A stretch of DNA of 64,000 nt from Gemmataceae bacterium (GCA_009692005.1 SHZZ01000009.1:1-64000); one strand, 5' to 3'; numbered from the stretch's first letter, positions 53,862-63,044 are shown. The notes: a model not told the origin generated them from the sequence alone. Program-made: numbers and translations.

Positions 53862-54068
53862 AGCATTGCAATTCATGAAAAAAGTAAAACCTTGATTCCT
53901 CAATTCAACCCTGTTTTACCTGGACATTTGTTTGCCCACTAATTACGCTTTCACTGCTTACAAACTGCGCAGACCAGGTTTACCCATCCCAGGGTCAATT
54001 AAAAAATAATTCCATAAAGCATTACGCAATAATTACTTATGTAGTTTATTGCCGAATTATTCTTCAAC

Positions 54069-54084
54069 TGGCACAACGATTGCC
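54069..54084 (+). promoter_or_regulatory. sigma-54-type promoter of the ammonium transporter operon
   Basis: TGGCAC (54069-54074), five bases, then TTGC (54080-54083) matches the -24/-12 consensus, with GG and GC dinucleotides properly spaced. Transcription from about 54096 gives a 46-base leader to the ATG at 54142. A sigma-54 promoter suits nitrogen-controlled ammonium uptake. Confidence 0.8.
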
Positions 54085-54141
54085 TTTAAACAGGCAGTGT
54101 TTTTTGTATTCCCGCTCTCACTTGAACCCGGGGGATTTACG

Positions 54142-55998
54142 ATGAAGTGGTTGTGTTGGTTATTTGCTGGCATGATTGCGGCCGGATCGGCCAATTTGGC
54201 CTTGGCCCAGGAAAAAGACAAAGAGCCGCCGCCCACGCTGGCTTCCTTAAAAGAAGAAATAAAAGCGAACAAAGAAGTCGCCGACGCTGGCATTGCCGAT
54301 GCCAAGCACAAAGGCGACACCGCCTGGATGCTGACCTCTTCCGGCCTGGTCATGTTGATGGTGCCCGGTCTGGCGCTGTTTTATGGCGGCATGGTGCAAA
54401 GGAAAAATGTTCTGGCCACCATGATGGAAAGCATGGCCGCCTTGGCCATCGTCGGTCTCTTTTGGATTGCCGTCGGCTATGGCCTAGCCTTTGGACCCTC
54501 CGTCAATGGCTGGGGTTTTGTCGGCTGGGACTGGAAATTCTTCTTTCTGCAAGGTGTGGAAGCTTCCGACCTGCTTCCCGCCACCAACATCAGCGTTTAC
54601 ACCCATGTCATGTTCCAGGGAATGTTTGCGATCATTACCCCGGCGCTGATAAGCGGCGCCATCGCGGAACGCGTCCGCTTCTGGCCCTTCTGCATTTTCA
54701 TGCTGGTATGGGTGGCGTTTGTTTACTGCCCCCTGGCCCACATGGTTTGGGCTTTCGATTGGTTTTACGACAAGCCGCTGGATGAAGGGCTTGGCCTGGG
54801 CGGCACGGCAATCGGCATGCTGGGAAAATGGGGCGCGCTGGACTTCGCGGGCGGCACCGTGGTTCACATCGCCGCCGGTATGGGTGGCCTGGCTTGCGCT
54901 TTGGTTTTGCGCAAGCGAACCGGTTACCCCGAACAGCCGATTCAACCGAATAGCATGGTGCTGACTTTGACCGGCGCCGGGCTCCTGTGGTTTGGCTGGT
55001 TCGGTTTCAACGGTGGAAGCGCGGTCGCTTCCGGCACTCTGGCTGCCTCGGCATTTTCTGCCACGCAAGCGGCGGCAGCCGCCGCGGGCCTGAGCTGGAT
55101 GCTCGTCGAATGGCTGCACAAGGGCAAGCCGACCGCCCTCGGCCTGGCCAGTGGAATTGTCGCTGGGCTTGTCGCGGTTACTCCCGCGTCTGGCTATGTC
55201 TACATCTGGGGCGGATTGATCATCGGCCTGTTGGCCGGGGTTGTTTGCTATTTCGCCGTCCAGTTGAAATCCGTTTTCCACTACGACGACTCTTTGGATG
55301 CCTTCGGCGTCCACGGGGTAGGCGGATTCCTCGGAGCGGTTCTCACCGGCGTCTTCTGTTACTATTCCATCAACAGCCTGGGCAACGACGGCATGCTAAC
55401 TTCGCAAGAAGTGCGTAGCAAGCAGGTTGCCGAGTTGGAAAAGAAAACCGAAAAGTCGGCTGGTGACAAAGCCAACCTGGAAAAGCTGAAAGGCTGGTCC
55501 TCGACCGGGCAATTGTTTATCCAGATTAAGGCGGCATCCTTCGCAGTGATTTACGCTTTCGTCCTCAGCCTGATCTTGGCCGGGGCCGTGCAAGCTGTCA
55601 CCGGGATGAATTTCTCCACCAGTCCGACTGAGGAAGTGGAAGGTTTGGATGAGGCAGAACACGGGGAAACCGGATTCGATTTCGGTACAACCCTGGCATC
55701 TGCCCGGGTCGGGTCGGCGCCACGCGCCGCTTCTACTCCTCCCAATGGAGCCAAGCGGTTCGCGGTGACCGTTGATGGCCCTGCGCAAGCCGACCTCCTC
55801 AAAGCCTGGTCAGAAATGTGCCAGGCCGGGTCGATGCCTCCTTCGGCGGAATTCAAGGCGGTATATCCGCACCTCACCACGATCAGCGGCAACAAATTCC
55901 GCTTCGCTGGCGGGGATCCCAACACCGTCAAGGAGTCGCTTTCCAAGCTCTTTTCCAAGCGCTTGAACACCCAGGTTAAAGCGACCGTGGAAGTGTAA
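54142..55998 (+). CDS. amtB: ammonium transporter (Amt family) with C-terminal extension
   Basis: 618 residues from the ATG at 54142; a longer TTG start at 54049 would place the sigma-54 promoter inside the gene. Signal peptide to about residue 23, then 11 transmembrane helices of the Amt fold: GLALFYGGMVQRKNV, NISVYTHVMFQGMFAIITPALISGAIAERVRF, DFAGGTVVHIAAGMGGLACALVLRKR and FGVHGVGGFLGAVLTG, carrying the twin-His pore. Unusual: a charged 45-residue insert between helices 10 and 11 (SQEVRSKQVAELEKKTEKS), and a roughly 100-residue soluble tail (KRFAVTVDGPAQADLLKAW to NTQVKATVEV) unlike known Amt tails. A PII gene follows 91 bases downstream. Confidence 0.94.
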   Translation: MKWLCWLFAGMIAAGSANLALAQEKDKEPPPTLASLKEEIKANKEVADAGIADAKHKGDTAWMLTSSGLVMLMVPGLALFYGGMVQRKNVLATMMESMAALAIVGLFWIAVGYGLAFGPSVNGWGFVGWDWKFFFLQGVEASDLLPATNISVYTHVMFQGMFAIITPALISGAIAERVRFWPFCIFMLVWVAFVYCPLAHMVWAFDWFYDKPLDEGLGLGGTAIGMLGKWGALDFAGGTVVHIAAGMGGLACALVLRKRTGYPEQPIQPNSMVLTLTGAGLLWFGWFGFNGGSAVASGTLAASAFSATQAAAAAAGLSWMLVEWLHKGKPTALGLASGIVAGLVAVTPASGYVYIWGGLIIGLLAGVVCYFAVQLKSVFHYDDSLDAFGVHGVGGFLGAVLTGVFCYYSINSLGNDGMLTSQEVRSKQVAELEKKTEKSAGDKANLEKLKGWSSTGQLFIQIKAASFAVIYAFVLSLILAGAVQAVTGMNFSTSPTEEVEGLDEAEHGETGFDFGTTLASARVGSAPRAASTPPNGAKRFAVTVDGPAQADLLKAWSEMCQAGSMPPSAEFKAVYPHLTTISGNKFRFAGGDPNTVKESLSKLFSKRLNTQVKATVEV

Positions 55999-56089
55999 AC
56001 CCTCATGGGCAATCCAGCCGGAGAAAATCCTCTGGCTGGATGGCCTTCCTCTTCACACAACATTCCTAATTGGAAAGCGAGTTTGAGTC

Positions 56090-56443
56090 ATGAAAATGAT
56101 AGTGGCGATTATCCGGCCGGAAAGGCTGGAAGCGGTGCAAGCCGCTTTGAATGAGCGTGATGTTTATTTGATGACCGTAACCGAGGTTCGCGGTTGCGGA
56201 CGGCAAAAAGGCTACACCGAGGTTTACCGCGGCACGGAAATCCAGATCAAGCTGCTGCCCAAGCTGAAGCTGGAAATCGCTGTCAACGATGCCTTCGTGG
56301 AAGCCACCATCGAGGCCATTGTCCCGGCGGCGCGCACCCCGGAAACTGGCAAGATCGGCGACGGCAAAATCTTCGTCTTGCCTCTGGAGGATTGCGTCCG
56401 CATCCGCACCGGCGAACGGGGCAGCCCAGCCATCGGACCGTGA
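56090..56443 (+). CDS. PII nitrogen-regulatory protein (GlnB/GlnK family)
   Basis: 117 residues, normal PII length. The PROSITE-like patterns YRGTE and the C-terminal [22 protein letters not shown] (ATP/2-oxoglutarate-binding B and C loops) are present. In the T-loop [23 protein letters not shown] the residue at position 51, where GlnB/GlnK have the uridylylated Tyr, is Ile, so that modification cannot take place there. It presumably binds the AmtB channel directly, gated by nucleotides and 2-oxoglutarate. Followed by a terminator; same transcript as amtB. Confidence 0.95.
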
Positions 56444-57832: not shown

Positions 57833-60800
57833 ATGCATCGAGAAATATCGCAAACTGACCGGGCCCTGGGCCACGAAAGCAGGCTTTCCCTCTACCTGCT
57901 GACTGCTCTATTGGGCTCCCTGATTGCTTTGGACATTTGGCCCTGGGTTGCGGGACGGTTGGAAACCTGGATGGGAATCCCCCTGCCCAGCCCCTGGCCC
58001 AACGAACTGGGCGGGTTCCGCTTGGCCCTGGTGGCCGCCATCCTTGGCGGCGCACGAGCCCTTTACGGTTCACTCGATTCCCTTTTGCAAGGCAAGCTGG
58101 GCGCCGACCTGGCTCTGGCCATCGCGTGCATCGCTGCCATCCTCATCAAGGAAGAACTCGTCGCCGCGGAAATCGTCTTCATTGGCCTGGTGGGGGAATG
58201 CCTGGAGGGCCTCACCTTCGACCGCACCCAGCGTGCGCTCAAAGGCATGCTGGAGCTTTTTCCCCGACGCTGCTGGCGGGTCAATGAAAAAGGCGAGGAA
58301 GAACGAGTCGAGGTCGAGCAACTTCATGCCGGTGATACGGTTCGGGTGCGGCCGGGCGGGCGAATTCCCGCCGATGGCGCCGTTATTGAAGGCCGGTCGG
58401 AGGTGAACACTGCGGCGTTGACTGGGGAAAGCCTTCCGCGTCTGGTTGAACCCGGGGACAAAATTCTCGCCGGCTGCGTCAACCTGGCCGGGGCGCTGAC
58501 GCTGAAGGTGGAAAAAGTCGGGCAGGAAACTGCCGCCGGGAAAATCCTCGCACTTACTCTCAAGGCGCTGCAGCAAAAAAACCAGGTGGAAAGAACGGCC
58601 GACCGCCTGGCTCGATGGTTTCTCCCCACGGTGCTTGGCCTGGCCCTGGTGACTTTTCTTGGATCCCTGGTAATTTCCCAGGCCGGGTGGTTTCGCTCCG
58701 CTGACATTCCCGCCCCGGGGTTTTACGCCTCGTTGCGGGCCGCAGTTTACCCGGCGCTTTCCATTCTGGTGGTGGCTTGTCCTTGCGCTCTGATCCTGGC
58801 CACGCCTGCCGCCGTCATTGCCGCCATGGGCCGCCTGGCGGGCACTGGCATCCTCATCAAGGGGGGCGCCGCGCTTGAACGCCTGGCCCTGGTGGATGCC
58901 TTCGCCTTTGACAAGACCGGCACGCTGACCGAAGGCCAACTGGAACTCGGCTCGACCTGGGCTGCCTCGGACAATCCTGAGGAAATTCTCCGTCTGGCCG
59001 CCAGCGCCGAGCTGCGCAGTGAACACGCCCTGGGCTCGCTGCTGGTCAGGCAGGCGAAGGAAAAGAAGCTGGCCCTGGAGGAACCGGGGCGCTTCCAGGC
59101 GCTTCCCGGGCTCGGTGTCGAGGCGGTTGTCGGTGGGAAACAAATTCTGGTGGGGACAGCTCGGTTGTTTCACGAACGCGGAATCGCCTTCTCCGCGGAT
59201 GTTTCAAAGGGCCTGCAGGAAATGGAAGCGACGGGGCAAACAGTCATGCTGGCGTCGGTGGATGGTGAGATAGCCGGCATGTTTGGCGCCCGCGACCGGG
59301 TCCGTCCCGAGGCCGCGGGAGTTCTGGCCAGCCTGCGCCAGCTTGGCATCGCCCAGATCAGCATTCTCACGGGCGACCGGGAAGCGGTGGCCCGTCAAGT
59401 GGGTGACTACCTGGGGGTGTCGGAGGTTCACGCCGGGCTCCTTCCCGCCGACAAGGAACAACAGATAGGTAAATTATCTGAAAAAAGTCTGGTGGCCATG
59501 GTGGGCGATGGCATCAACGACGCCCCGGCGCTGGCCCGGGCCCATGTGGGCCTGGCCATTGGCGGGCCAGGGGGAATCGAAGCCGCCGCCGAGGCGGGCG
59601 ATGTCATCCTCCTCGGCGAACCGCTCCGCTCACTCCCTTTGCTTTTAGGTTTGGCCAGGGAAACTCTCGCCGTCATCCGCCAAAACATTTTCATCTTCGC
59701 CTTTGGCGTCAACCTGGTGGGCATTCTTTTCACTTCCTGGCTGTGGCCGCTGATCACTCCGCCGGAATGGCTGAGGCAATCGCCGCTCGCCGCCGTCATC
59801 TACCACCAGATCGGTTCCCTTCTCGTTTTGGCCAATTCCATGCGCCTGCTGGCCTACCAGCGCCCTGCCACCAGCGCCTGGAAAACCTCCCTGTCGGGCT
59901 TCTTCGACCGCGTCGGCAGTTTCCTCGACAAGGCCTTCAACCTCGATGAGCACTTCCACACGCTGGCGGATTACTGGAAGACGGCGCTGGCATCCTTGAT
60001 TGCCTTGCTGGCTGTCGGCTGGATGGCCACAGGTTTGCTCCAAGTGGAGGCCAGCGAAATCGCCCTGGTCCGCCGCTTTGGCGCCCTGCAAGATGGCGAG
60101 CTAAGCCCCGGCCTGCACTGGCGCTTTCCCTGGCCCGTTGACGAAATCACCAGGGTGCAGCCCAAACGCATCCGCGTGGTGGAAGTCGGCTTCCGCTTCA
60201 TCCCCGGGGTAAAAGGTGAGGCCAGCAGGTCCTGGTCCAGCCGTCATGAAGGCGACGGGCTGCTGCGGGTGCCCGATGAATCCGTGGTGATCACCGGTGA
60301 CGGCAACTTGCTGGAAATTCAGGGCAGCATCCGCTACCGCTTGACCGACCCGCGCAAGTTCCTCTTTCATTCCGCCGATGTCGAAGCGCTGCTGCGCGGC
60401 CAGGCGGAATCGGTCCTGAGGGAACTGGCCGGCGCCCTTCCCTTCGACTCACTACTGACCTCAAGGCGAAATGAATTCCAGGCCCTGGCGCTGGACAAAC
60501 TGGATAGGCGCTTGAAGCTTTACGACGGTTTGGGCATCGCGCTTGAAGGCGTCTCTCTGCACGACCTGCACCCGCCGCAGGAAGTCGTGCGCTCCTATTA
60601 TTCCGTGACGCAAGCGATGGAGTTCCGCGACCGCAAGGTGAATGAGGCAGCCGGCGCCACCTTGCAAAAAGAAGCGGACGAAGCCGGCCGCGCCCTACAG
60701 CGGGTGCGCATGGCAGAAGTGCAAGCAGATGAGACCGTGTTAAAGGCTAAAGTGGGCGCCGACACTTTTTTGGAGCTTCACCGCATGCTGCGGGGCCCAA

Positions 60801-61132
60801 GCCACTGGGACGATTACCACCTGGTGGCCGAGGGGTTGTGGAATAGTCTGCAGGGGGGCGATGCGGCGCAAGAGGCCAGACAATGCTTGTATCAATTGCA
60901 AAACCGCAGGAGTTCCTGGAAGTCGGTGGCGGAGTTTCGCCGGTTTTGGAATAGCTTGACTGGCGCGCTAGCCGGCCGCGAGAAAACCTTGATCGATTCC
61001 ACCCACCCGGGCGCCACCACCCGCCTGTGGTTTTTCCCCCCGGAACTGCTGCGCTTTGGCGCTGTCGCCCCCAGCGCTCAGCCCGCTCAAGACCGCCCCC
61101 GCACCACGCCGCCCAACCGAGACAACCCTTGA
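57833..61132 (+). CDS. P1B-type metal ATPase fused to an HflK-like SPFH domain
   Basis: 1099 residues. Residues 1 to about 690 form a full P-type ATPase: actuator TGES at 197-200, the metal-site CPC at 316-318, DKTGT beginning at D360, and GDGIND at 558-563. It has no N-terminal HMA domain, and the N-domain motif normally SEHPL reads SEHAL. Then a membrane helix at about 720-740 (LIALLAVGWMATGLLQ) and an SPFH/HflK domain (ALVRRFGALQDGELSPGLHWRFPWPVDEI, GDGNLLEIQGSIRYRL, coiled coil to about 980). The transported metal cannot be told from TM7/TM8. No Shine-Dalgarno is visible before ATG 57833. The next two genes encode SPFH proteins. Confidence 0.92.
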   Translation: MHREISQTDRALGHESRLSLYLLTALLGSLIALDIWPWVAGRLETWMGIPLPSPWPNELGGFRLALVAAILGGARALYGSLDSLLQGKLGADLALAIACIAAILIKEELVAAEIVFIGLVGECLEGLTFDRTQRALKGMLELFPRRCWRVNEKGEEERVEVEQLHAGDTVRVRPGGRIPADGAVIEGRSEVNTAALTGESLPRLVEPGDKILAGCVNLAGALTLKVEKVGQETAAGKILALTLKALQQKNQVERTADRLARWFLPTVLGLALVTFLGSLVISQAGWFRSADIPAPGFYASLRAAVYPALSILVVACPCALILATPAAVIAAMGRLAGTGILIKGGAALERLALVDAFAFDKTGTLTEGQLELGSTWAASDNPEEILRLAASAELRSEHALGSLLVRQAKEKKLALEEPGRFQALPGLGVEAVVGGKQILVGTARLFHERGIAFSADVSKGLQEMEATGQTVMLASVDGEIAGMFGARDRVRPEAAGVLASLRQLGIAQISILTGDREAVARQVGDYLGVSEVHAGLLPADKEQQIGKLSEKSLVAMVGDGINDAPALARAHVGLAIGGPGGIEAAAEAGDVILLGEPLRSLPLLLGLARETLAVIRQNIFIFAFGVNLVGILFTSWLWPLITPPEWLRQSPLAAVIYHQIGSLLVLANSMRLLAYQRPATSAWKTSLSGFFDRVGSFLDKAFNLDEHFHTLADYWKTALASLIALLAVGWMATGLLQVEASEIALVRRFGALQDGELSPGLHWRFPWPVDEITRVQPKRIRVVEVGFRFIPGVKGEASRSWSSRHEGDGLLRVPDESVVITGDGNLLEIQGSIRYRLTDPRKFLFHSADVEALLRGQAESVLRELAGALPFDSLLTSRRNEFQALALDKLDRRLKLYDGLGIALEGVSLHDLHPPQEVVRSYYSVTQAMEFRDRKVNEAAGATLQKEADEAGRALQRVRMAEVQADETVLKAKVGADTFLELHRMLRGPSHWDDYHLVAEGLWNSLQGGDAAQEARQCLYQLQNRRSSWKSVAEFRRFWNSLTGALAGREKTLIDSTHPGATTRLWFFPPELLRFGAVAPSAQPAQDRPRTTPPNRDNP

Positions 61133-61152
61133 TGCCCTGATTGCGAGGACTC

Positions 61153-62115
61153 ATGAAAACTTTTGCCCTGATTCTGGCCATTCCGATCGGCCTGTGGTTT
61201 TTTTCCCAGGCGCTTTTTACCGTCGACCGCGCAGAGTTTGCCTACCTCACGCGGTTCGGCGCCCATGTCGCCACTTTCGACGGCGCCGACCCCAGCCAGG
61301 CCGGACTTCACTTCAAACTCCCCTGGCCCATTCAAGCCGTGCGAAAACTCGACAGCCGACTGCAGTTCTTCGACCTGCCTAGCGTTGAACTCTTGACTCG
61401 CGATCCACAGCGAAACACCATCGACAAAACCCTCACCCTGGATGCCTTCATCTGCTGGCAAATCAGCGATGCCAAGGGCGTCGATACTTTTTTAAGAACC
61501 GTTGGCAGCATGGAGGGCGCCCGGGCCATCCTTTCGCAACGCGTGAACTCGGAACTTGGCGCCATCGTCGGCACCATGGAACTTGACGACCTCGTTAGCG
61601 TTGAGGAAGGGAAAGTCGAAAGAAAGCGCGTGGAGTTGCGCAACCGCCTCCTCGGCGCTGGGCCAGAGGGGAAATCCTTCCAGGCCACAACGCTGGCGGA
61701 GTATGGCATCCGCGTTGTTGACATCCGCTTGCGCAGGGCCAATCATCCCCCCGCCGTTCGCCAGGCCATTTTCGACCGAATCATCAGCGAACGCGACCGC
61801 AAGGCCGCCGAGTATCAGGCCGAAGGGGAGAAGAAGGCCGCCGACATTCGCAGCGCCAGCGAAAGCAAGGTGGCTCGGCTGCGCTCGCAATCGGAAGCTA
61901 CCGCAGCGCAATTGAAGGGCCTGGCAGAGGCCGAAGCCGACCGCATCCGCTCGCTGGCACAGGCACGCGACCCCGCCTTCTATTCCTTTTTGAAAAAACT
62001 GGAAGAGTACCAGCGCATCCTCGGCGACAACAAAACCACCCTCTTTTTGGGAACCCAGGGTGAACTGTTCGACCTGCTCTTCCGCCCGCCGGGCGCCCCG
62101 GGGAAAAACCCATGA
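61153..62115 (+). CDS. HflC-like SPFH/band-7 membrane protein
   Basis: 320 residues from the ATG at 61153 (GAGG upstream). One N-terminal helix (FALILAIPIGLWFFSQALF) then the SPFH domain: VDRAEFAYLTRFGAHVATFDG, AGLHFKLPWPIQAVRKLDSRLQFFDLP, and VDIRLRRANHPPAVRQAIFDRIISERDRKAAEYQAEGEKKAADI, the HflC-type coiled coil. In other bacteria HflC with HflK forms a large membrane complex around FtsH; FtsH is not encoded here. It starts 21 bases after the ATPase-HflK fusion, and its stop overlaps the next start (ATGA at 62112), so the genes are translationally coupled. Confidence 0.9.
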   Translation: MKTFALILAIPIGLWFFSQALFTVDRAEFAYLTRFGAHVATFDGADPSQAGLHFKLPWPIQAVRKLDSRLQFFDLPSVELLTRDPQRNTIDKTLTLDAFICWQISDAKGVDTFLRTVGSMEGARAILSQRVNSELGAIVGTMELDDLVSVEEGKVERKRVELRNRLLGAGPEGKSFQATTLAEYGIRVVDIRLRRANHPPAVRQAIFDRIISERDRKAAEYQAEGEKKAADIRSASESKVARLRSQSEATAAQLKGLAEAEADRIRSLAQARDPAFYSFLKKLEEYQRILGDNKTTLFLGTQGELFDLLFRPPGAPGKNP

Positions 62116-63044
62116 AGAAAGCGCTACTGATTTTCCTGAGCATCGGACTGGGCGGGTTCTTGCTCACCGGCTTGACCCAAATTCTGCCCGGCGAGCGGGC
62201 TGTCGTCCGCCGCTTTGGCCATCTCCTTCCCGATCAGCCAGGGCCTGGATTGCGCGTGGGCTTCCCCTGGGGCATCGACCGCGTTGACCGCGTTGCCGTT
62301 GATCGCGTCAACCAGATGCATGTTGGCTACATCGAAGACGACGGCGGCGTGCCCCTGCCCACGGGTCAAATGTTGACCGGCGACAACAACCTGGTCAACG
62401 CCGGCCTCAGCGTCCATTACAAAGTCGACGCGGCCAGGCTGGTGGAGTACGCCATGCAGAAGGAAACCGCGCTGGAGCTGCTCACCCGCGCCGTCGAGTC
62501 GGCCGCCGCGGAGTGGATCGCTTCCCGCGGAGTGGATGAAGTTCTTCTCGAGGGGAAGCTGGAACTCGGCCGCTTTGCCGCCCGGGCTGCTCAGGAACTC
62601 GTGCGCGAACTGGGGTTGGGGCTGGAGATTCTCGATGTCCGCGTCGGGTTGCTGGCGCCCCCGGACGAAGTCAAGCCGGCTTTCGACGCCGTCGCCCGCG
62701 CCCAGACTGGCGTGCGCACCCTGGTCAACAAGGCCGAACAAGAAGCGGCTTTGCGCGTTTCCCAGGGCGAGGCCGATCGCTTCCGCATTCAACAAGAAAC
62801 CCGTGCCTGGGTGGACAATTTACACCTGCAGGCGCGCACAGAGGCGAAACGCTTTCTCACCCGCTTGCGCAATTACCAAACAGGGGTCAGGATCAACCCC
62901 ACCTATTTAAGACAAATCTGGGAGGAAGAACGGGGAAAGGTCTTTGCCAAATTAAAGGAGCAAGGAGCCATTGGACTGATCGATTCCACCCTGGGAAAAA
63001 ACGGCCTCGATTTACAGATCATTCCCCTGGCCCCGAAAAAATAA
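62112..63044 (+). CDS. HflK-like SPFH/band-7 membrane protein
   Basis: 310 residues. N-terminal helix (LLIFLSIGLGGFLLTGLTQILPG) followed by an SPFH domain with HflK-like features: ERAVVRRFGHLLPDQPGPGLRVGFPWGIDRVDRV, MLTGDNNLVNAGLSVHYKV, and a C-terminal helix that carries VGLLAPPDEVKPAFDAVARAQ. It is the third SPFH domain in this operon. Translation is coupled to the upstream gene by ATGA. Followed by a stem-loop region, then a convergent rhomboid gene. Confidence 0.9.
   Translation: MKKALLIFLSIGLGGFLLTGLTQILPGERAVVRRFGHLLPDQPGPGLRVGFPWGIDRVDRVAVDRVNQMHVGYIEDDGGVPLPTGQMLTGDNNLVNAGLSVHYKVDAARLVEYAMQKETALELLTRAVESAAAEWIASRGVDEVLLEGKLELGRFAARAAQELVRELGLGLEILDVRVGLLAPPDEVKPAFDAVARAQTGVRTLVNKAEQEAALRVSQGEADRFRIQQETRAWVDNLHLQARTEAKRFLTRLRNYQTGVRINPTYLRQIWEEERGKVFAKLKEQGAIGLIDSTLGKNGLDLQIIPLAPKK

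Follow-up and report, generated by a model that had tools for sequence, protein, structure and literature searches.

The window analysed here, a 64,000-nucleotide stretch of DNA from a Gemmataceae bacterium, carries an operon in which a P1B-type heavy-metal ATPase is fused to an HflK-type SPFH protein (HflK1) and followed by genes for HflC and for a second HflK-like protein (HflK2). The fusion and the operon are conserved, unrelated exporters have been recruited repeatedly to the same HflK1-HflC-HflK2 trio, and the trios are separate from ordinary HflK-HflC pairs. Throughout a phylum, and also on a marine plasmid, this scaffold trio is joined to or encoded beside metal exporters of no fewer than three unrelated families, which points to an undescribed membrane organisation of metal export. 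On balance we lean towards reading the window operon as an HflK/HflC-type assembly that is dedicated to, and built around, a metal exporter, and not as a housekeeping FtsH modulator.

A P1B-type ATPase fused to HflK

The fusion gene (57833–61132, plus strand) is a single open frame of 1099 residues. Pfam matches identify an E1-E2_ATPase domain at residues 142–336 (E 2.6e-50), a HAD hydrolase domain at residues 354–571 (1.6e-27) and an SPFH/Band_7 domain at residues 737–939 (60041–60649; 1.7e-22), and the chain scores 537.7 bits against the NCBIfam heavy-metal P-type ATPase model TIGR01525 (cut-off 346). The hflC gene follows on the same strand (61141–62115; TIGR01932, 145.8 bits, cut-off 134.4); it may start at TTG 61141 or ATG 61153, of which the latter is the likelier. 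The hflK2 gene (62112–63044, plus strand; Band_7, 1.3e-16) overlaps hflC by four bases, the stop and the start sharing ATGA at 62112–62115. The initial annotation, which had placed a P-type ATPase and an SPFH domain in one 1099-residue chain and described two more SPFH genes with the last pair coupled by ATGA, was therefore correct on both points.

All catalytic motifs of P1B-type ATPases are present in the window pump and conserved in our alignment of relatives (alignment A1): TGES in the actuator domain (residues 197–200, 58421–58432, with G198 and E199 invariant), the DKTGT phosphorylation site (residues 360–364, 58910–58924, invariant, with D360 as the phosphorylated residue) and the hinge motif GDGxND, here GDGIND (residues 558–563, 59504–59521). 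The metal-site motif CPC (residues 316–318, 58778–58786) is found in 26 of 26 fused relatives, and the last pump helix carries HQIGS (residues 658–662, 59804–59818), matching a pattern H-Q-x-[GAS]-S that is likewise kept in all 26. The window pump thus resembles CopA, ZntA and P1B-4 ATPases in TGES, CPC, DKTGT, GDGxND and helix layout, but differs from them in its C-terminal HflK fusion and in the N-terminus, where no HMA metal-binding domain was found. Its last-helix motif (HQxGS in the fused pumps) also differs from DTGAT of E. coli ZntA and MALSS of CopA; the histidine is presumably reminiscent of HEGxT in P1B-4 pumps. The His-Pro motif of the nucleotide domain, which most relatives in the alignment have as HP, reads SEHA in the window pump (H398, A399). 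We kept the P1B-type assignment despite this His-Ala because the TIGR01525 score lies so far above its cut-off.

Because the fused pumps uniformly carry CPC, a metal cargo is a fair reading for the window pump, although not for all of its relatives. Non-fused pumps retain DKTGT and GDGxND in the alignment, but only 34 of 55 in the loci described below have CPC, the others showing CPS, CPG, CPT, CPV, TPC or, in one case, a gap. The term "metal pump" used in the initial annotation therefore suits the fused clade and not the many unfused relatives in which CPC is degenerate.

The fusion was searched for in 59 genomes, the window's own included, with a query made of the last pump helices and the SPFH part. 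Of the 36 other members of the family, 29 carry it in an unbroken frame longer than 1000 residues and three have an interrupted form (split over contigs, with a broken frame or at a contig end); 6 of 7 members of a sister family carry it, as do single genomes of two further families in the class. Identity across the family and its sister family is about 33–50%, and the fused pumps form one clade with a support of 1.0. An assembly artefact, which a fusion confined to this assembly would have suggested, was rejected on this recurrence. A search of genome contigs with a single fusion sequence gave only three weak loci, one of which, in Bradyrhizobium, was later recognised as a trio of another kind (CDF::HflK, below). 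Two relatives showed peculiarities of their own: in one, a 576-residue gene whose family was not recognised lies between the fusion and hflC (L049:6007-7737), and one genome outside the window's class (G213) holds both a P1B::HflK fusion and an unfused trio with a pump (L129/L130).

The SPFH trio and its linked exporters

To place the fusion in a wider context, the phylum was searched with the pump and with an HflC profile, the regions were fetched and 101 HflC loci were classified. HflC matches of about 254 bits or more were all fetched regardless of their neighbours and weaker ones were sampled only; some of the loci sampled first came to light through pump matches, and the locus counts vary with the profile thresholds. 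The order HflK1-HflC-HflK2 on one strand recurs across the phylum. A P1B-like ATPase of the window pump's family is present in the same locus in 53 of the 101 cases, directly after HflK2 in about four fifths of these and 1–4.5 kb ahead of HflK1 in 11. HflK1 is fused to a P1B-type ATPase in 2 loci (the window and L129), to an SO_0444-type permease in 10 and to a CDF exporter in 2. Altogether, 67 of the 101 sampled loci contain either a P1B-like ATPase or a fused exporter. By comparison, neither was found in any of the 26 loci with only two SPFH genes, not all of which are ordinary pairs: two are cut by a contig end (L109, L124) and two lie within the trio clade of the HflC tree (L133, L087). 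The same tree separates most ordinary HflK-HflC pairs from the trios, and four genomes contain both kinds.

The genomic association of the scaffold trio with metal exporters is strong. The initial annotation, which linked SPFH proteins to a metal exporter, was right in direction: the link is real and conserved, is seen again with exporters of unrelated families and is distinct from ordinary HflK-HflC pairs. It was drawn too narrowly, however; the P1B fusion is one form only, and in most of the phylum the trio is unfused and the P1B-like ATPase is a separate protein. The further suggestion of that annotation, a microdomain or cage around the pump that would control its activity, turnover or lipid surroundings, stays a proposal.

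The exporter parts of the other fusions are recognised by curated family models and in this match SO_0444-type Cu/Zn efflux permeases and CDF exporters; they differ from these in being joined to HflK, with hflC and another hflK gene after them. In two SO_0444-type fusions the permease scores 368.5 and 390.9 bits against the SO_0444 Cu/Zn efflux model, whose cut-off is 300, and 5 of the 10 fusions have a ZIP gene immediately upstream. The CDF part was confirmed with Pfam in the two loci of the phylum (L093, L098), in Bradyrhizobium sp. URHD0069 (L007) and in Aquibium oceanicum (L214). At the positions of the FieF A site (D45, D49, H153, D157), L098, L093 and L214 have His-Asp-His-Asp and the third residue of L007 is Cys, so that three of the four fused CDFs keep a full His/Asp site. 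The ZntA-like ATPase near the L093 trio lies outside the SPFH-linked pump clades.

HflK1 that is not fused to an exporter bears an N-terminal multi-helix domain matching no Pfam model. When 63 of these domains were aligned with hhalign to a CDF membrane-domain profile of four sequences, two of them fused CDFs, the probability was 91.8% (P 7.2e-7, 198 columns), against less than 0.5% for the controls ArsP, pump and ZIP. The CDF metal residues have been lost from the domain. We read it as a decayed CDF, although so small a profile makes this a lead rather than proof.

In Pseudomonadota the CDF fusion is rare. The trio of Bradyrhizobium sp. URHD0069 begins with it, and a search of 398 Pseudomonadota genomes with this fusion as the query gave a match across both parts in the query's own genome only; three other candidates, two of them with long frames, were inspected and contained no fusion. 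The other named example lies on a plasmid of A. oceanicum B7 typed as conjugative (NZ_CP018172.1; region L214:5299-19479), where CDF::HflK, HflC and HflK sit amid genes for copper handling: they are preceded by Nramp and a two-component system and followed by genes for a peptidylprolyl isomerase, a heavy-metal P-type ATPase, PCu(A)C and SCO. Two open reading frames between the sensor kinase and the fusion resemble, as judged by eye, an insertion-sequence transposase. The record labels the fusion "FtsH protease activity modulator HflK". Plasmid searches with the P1B fusion returned separate hflK genes only, and with the SO_0444 fusion no match to both parts was seen among the matches listed. 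On Tistrella and Azospirillum plasmids, ordinary hflK-hflC pairs adjoin a DegQ protease and an Mrp/ApbC-type ATPase.

The flanks of the trio loci have recurrent neighbours as well. At most unfused pump loci (32 of 42 members of a flank cluster) an ABC-2-type ATPase gene lies just downstream on the same strand, and the flanks repeatedly hold genes for ABC-2-like permeases. Such genes adjoin the HflK1-HflC-HflK2-pump operon at L113, L079, L073, L074 and about 30 similar loci, where a gene for a large protein with no Pfam match also recurs. No ABC-2-type gene was noticed beside the window operon. There, a rhomboid-family gene on the opposite strand converges on the operon from 63167 onwards (whole gene L040:7167-8780), and positions 54049–56443 hold an ammonium transporter gene, whose product is extended by about 100 residues at the C-terminus, and then a P-II gene.

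Proposed assembly and alternative readings

In E. coli, HflK and HflC each have one N-terminal membrane helix and a periplasmic SPFH domain, and 12 heterodimers form a cage around FtsH (PMC12005517). The trio proteins are homologous to those of the E. coli FtsH-HflKC complex (PDB 7vhp, 7wi3, 9cz1, 9cz2) and share with them one helix followed by an SPFH domain that is probably periplasmic, and co-assembly of HflK-type and HflC-type subunits is likely for the trio as well. They differ in the exporter fused to HflK1, in the extra HflK-like gene and in the lack of linkage to ftsH; moreover, genomes with both kinds keep the ordinary pair separately from the trio.

An eight-helix pump of this type terminates in the cytoplasm. 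In the window fusion an extra transmembrane helix (residues 718–736, 59984–60040, hydropathy 2.06) stands directly ahead of the SPFH domain. This topology was derived from hydropathy and family knowledge, the latter placing the last pump helix, which the hydropathy threshold missed. Because the pump ends in the cytoplasm and one helix follows, we infer that the SPFH domain of HflK1 is periplasmic, the usual orientation of HflK. HflK1, which is joined covalently to the exporter, could take the HflK positions in a ring or cage with HflC and HflK2, as HflK does in E. coli. Such a ring would keep several pumps together, so that export may be clustered or gated, and the metal would leave them within, or next to, a compartment in the periplasm. 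A broader proposal, which we put forward more tentatively than the reading of the window operon and would not yet call the probable one, is that the trios make up an undescribed general class of caged exporters, in which periplasmic assemblies of the HflK/HflC type, independently of FtsH, enclose or cluster exporters that belong to unrelated families and are tethered to them.

Several observations weigh against the proposed assembly. HflK1 and HflK2 of the window score 118.1 and 108.6 bits against the HflK model TIGR01933, under its cut-off of 159.4, and are therefore named HflK-like here; one CDF-fused relative exceeds the cut-off with 186.4 bits. No transporter was found with the trio in 8 of the 101 loci; three of these are at or near a contig end, and five lie well inside contigs, but for four of these five the pump search gave a similar ATPase at another place in the genome. 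HflC is not adjacent to the fusion in 10 fused loci (the contig of one being very short), and four of these 10 genomes hold an HflC-HflK2 pair elsewhere. The trio clade of the HflC tree is weakly supported (0.318), with a few loci placed on the opposite side. The degenerate CPC of many unfused pumps suggests that some members may move something else. Finally, the window set could also serve the FtsH of its own genome, because this genome has no other HflK-HflC pair.

The last point bears on the likeliest alternative, in which the trio is still an FtsH modulator whose HflK/HflC cage draws FtsH to metal exporters and so regulates how these are turned over. HflK and HflC are best known as partners that enclose FtsH hexamers (PMC12005517; PMC13220708). 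The initial annotation had stated that the window lacks ftsH, and indeed none was found in its 64 kb; the genome's one FtsH is encoded on another contig (C2:11447-12010). A distant ftsH/hflKC pair, which the same annotation had proposed to look for, was found only in part, as two further SPFH proteins of the genome (C19, C50) include no canonical HflK-HflC pair. On C19 an SPFH gene overlaps a neutral/alkaline ceramidase-domain gene by about 20 bases (L042:11161-13297). The surveyed trio operons contain no ftsH either, the sole FtsH match among the surveyed loci lying 5.5 kb away on the other strand. This missing linkage weighs little, because ftsH is frequently unlinked in other bacteria too. 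The HflK residues that contact FtsH in E. coli, R141, E142 and R185 (PMC13220708), vary among ordinary relatives as well, too much to favour either reading. The four genomes with both kinds, which retain a separate ordinary pair beside the trio, speak against the modulator role, and we regard this alternative as rather unlikely.

It is less probable still that the trio organises only the lipid surroundings of the exporters, as a microdomain without a closed cage, in the way flotillin scaffolds are thought to act. A scaffolding role in microdomains is widely ascribed to SPFH proteins, and a flotillin co-transcribed with a rhodopsin provides a precedent in which an SPFH gene is kept beside a transporter-like membrane protein (PMC10308929). 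However, that system is of the flotillin type, unfused and paired with a rhodopsin instead of a metal exporter, whereas the window proteins are of the HflK/HflC type, whose E. coli members make a closed cage. A chance fusion of neighbouring genes without functional meaning is very improbable: neighbouring genes do fuse, and unfused neighbours exist here, but unrelated exporter families have been fused at the same HflK1 end with the order K1-C-K2 kept, and the P1B fusion has been maintained at the sequence divergence given above.

Meaning for HflK/HflC function

Exporter-HflK fusions are described in none of the titles and abstracts listed by our searches of openly licensed PMC papers, and the word ATPase is absent from a survey of SPFH proteins in 497 genomes (PMC2636767). 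The usual view of HflK and HflC is that they modulate FtsH, and the Aquibium fusion has been annotated in that sense. If the recurrent exporter fusions reflect assembly, HflK and HflC would have a second role, the building of compartments for metal export. Because the genome itself names the cargo by covalent fusion, this would be relevant to the debated purpose of SPFH cages.

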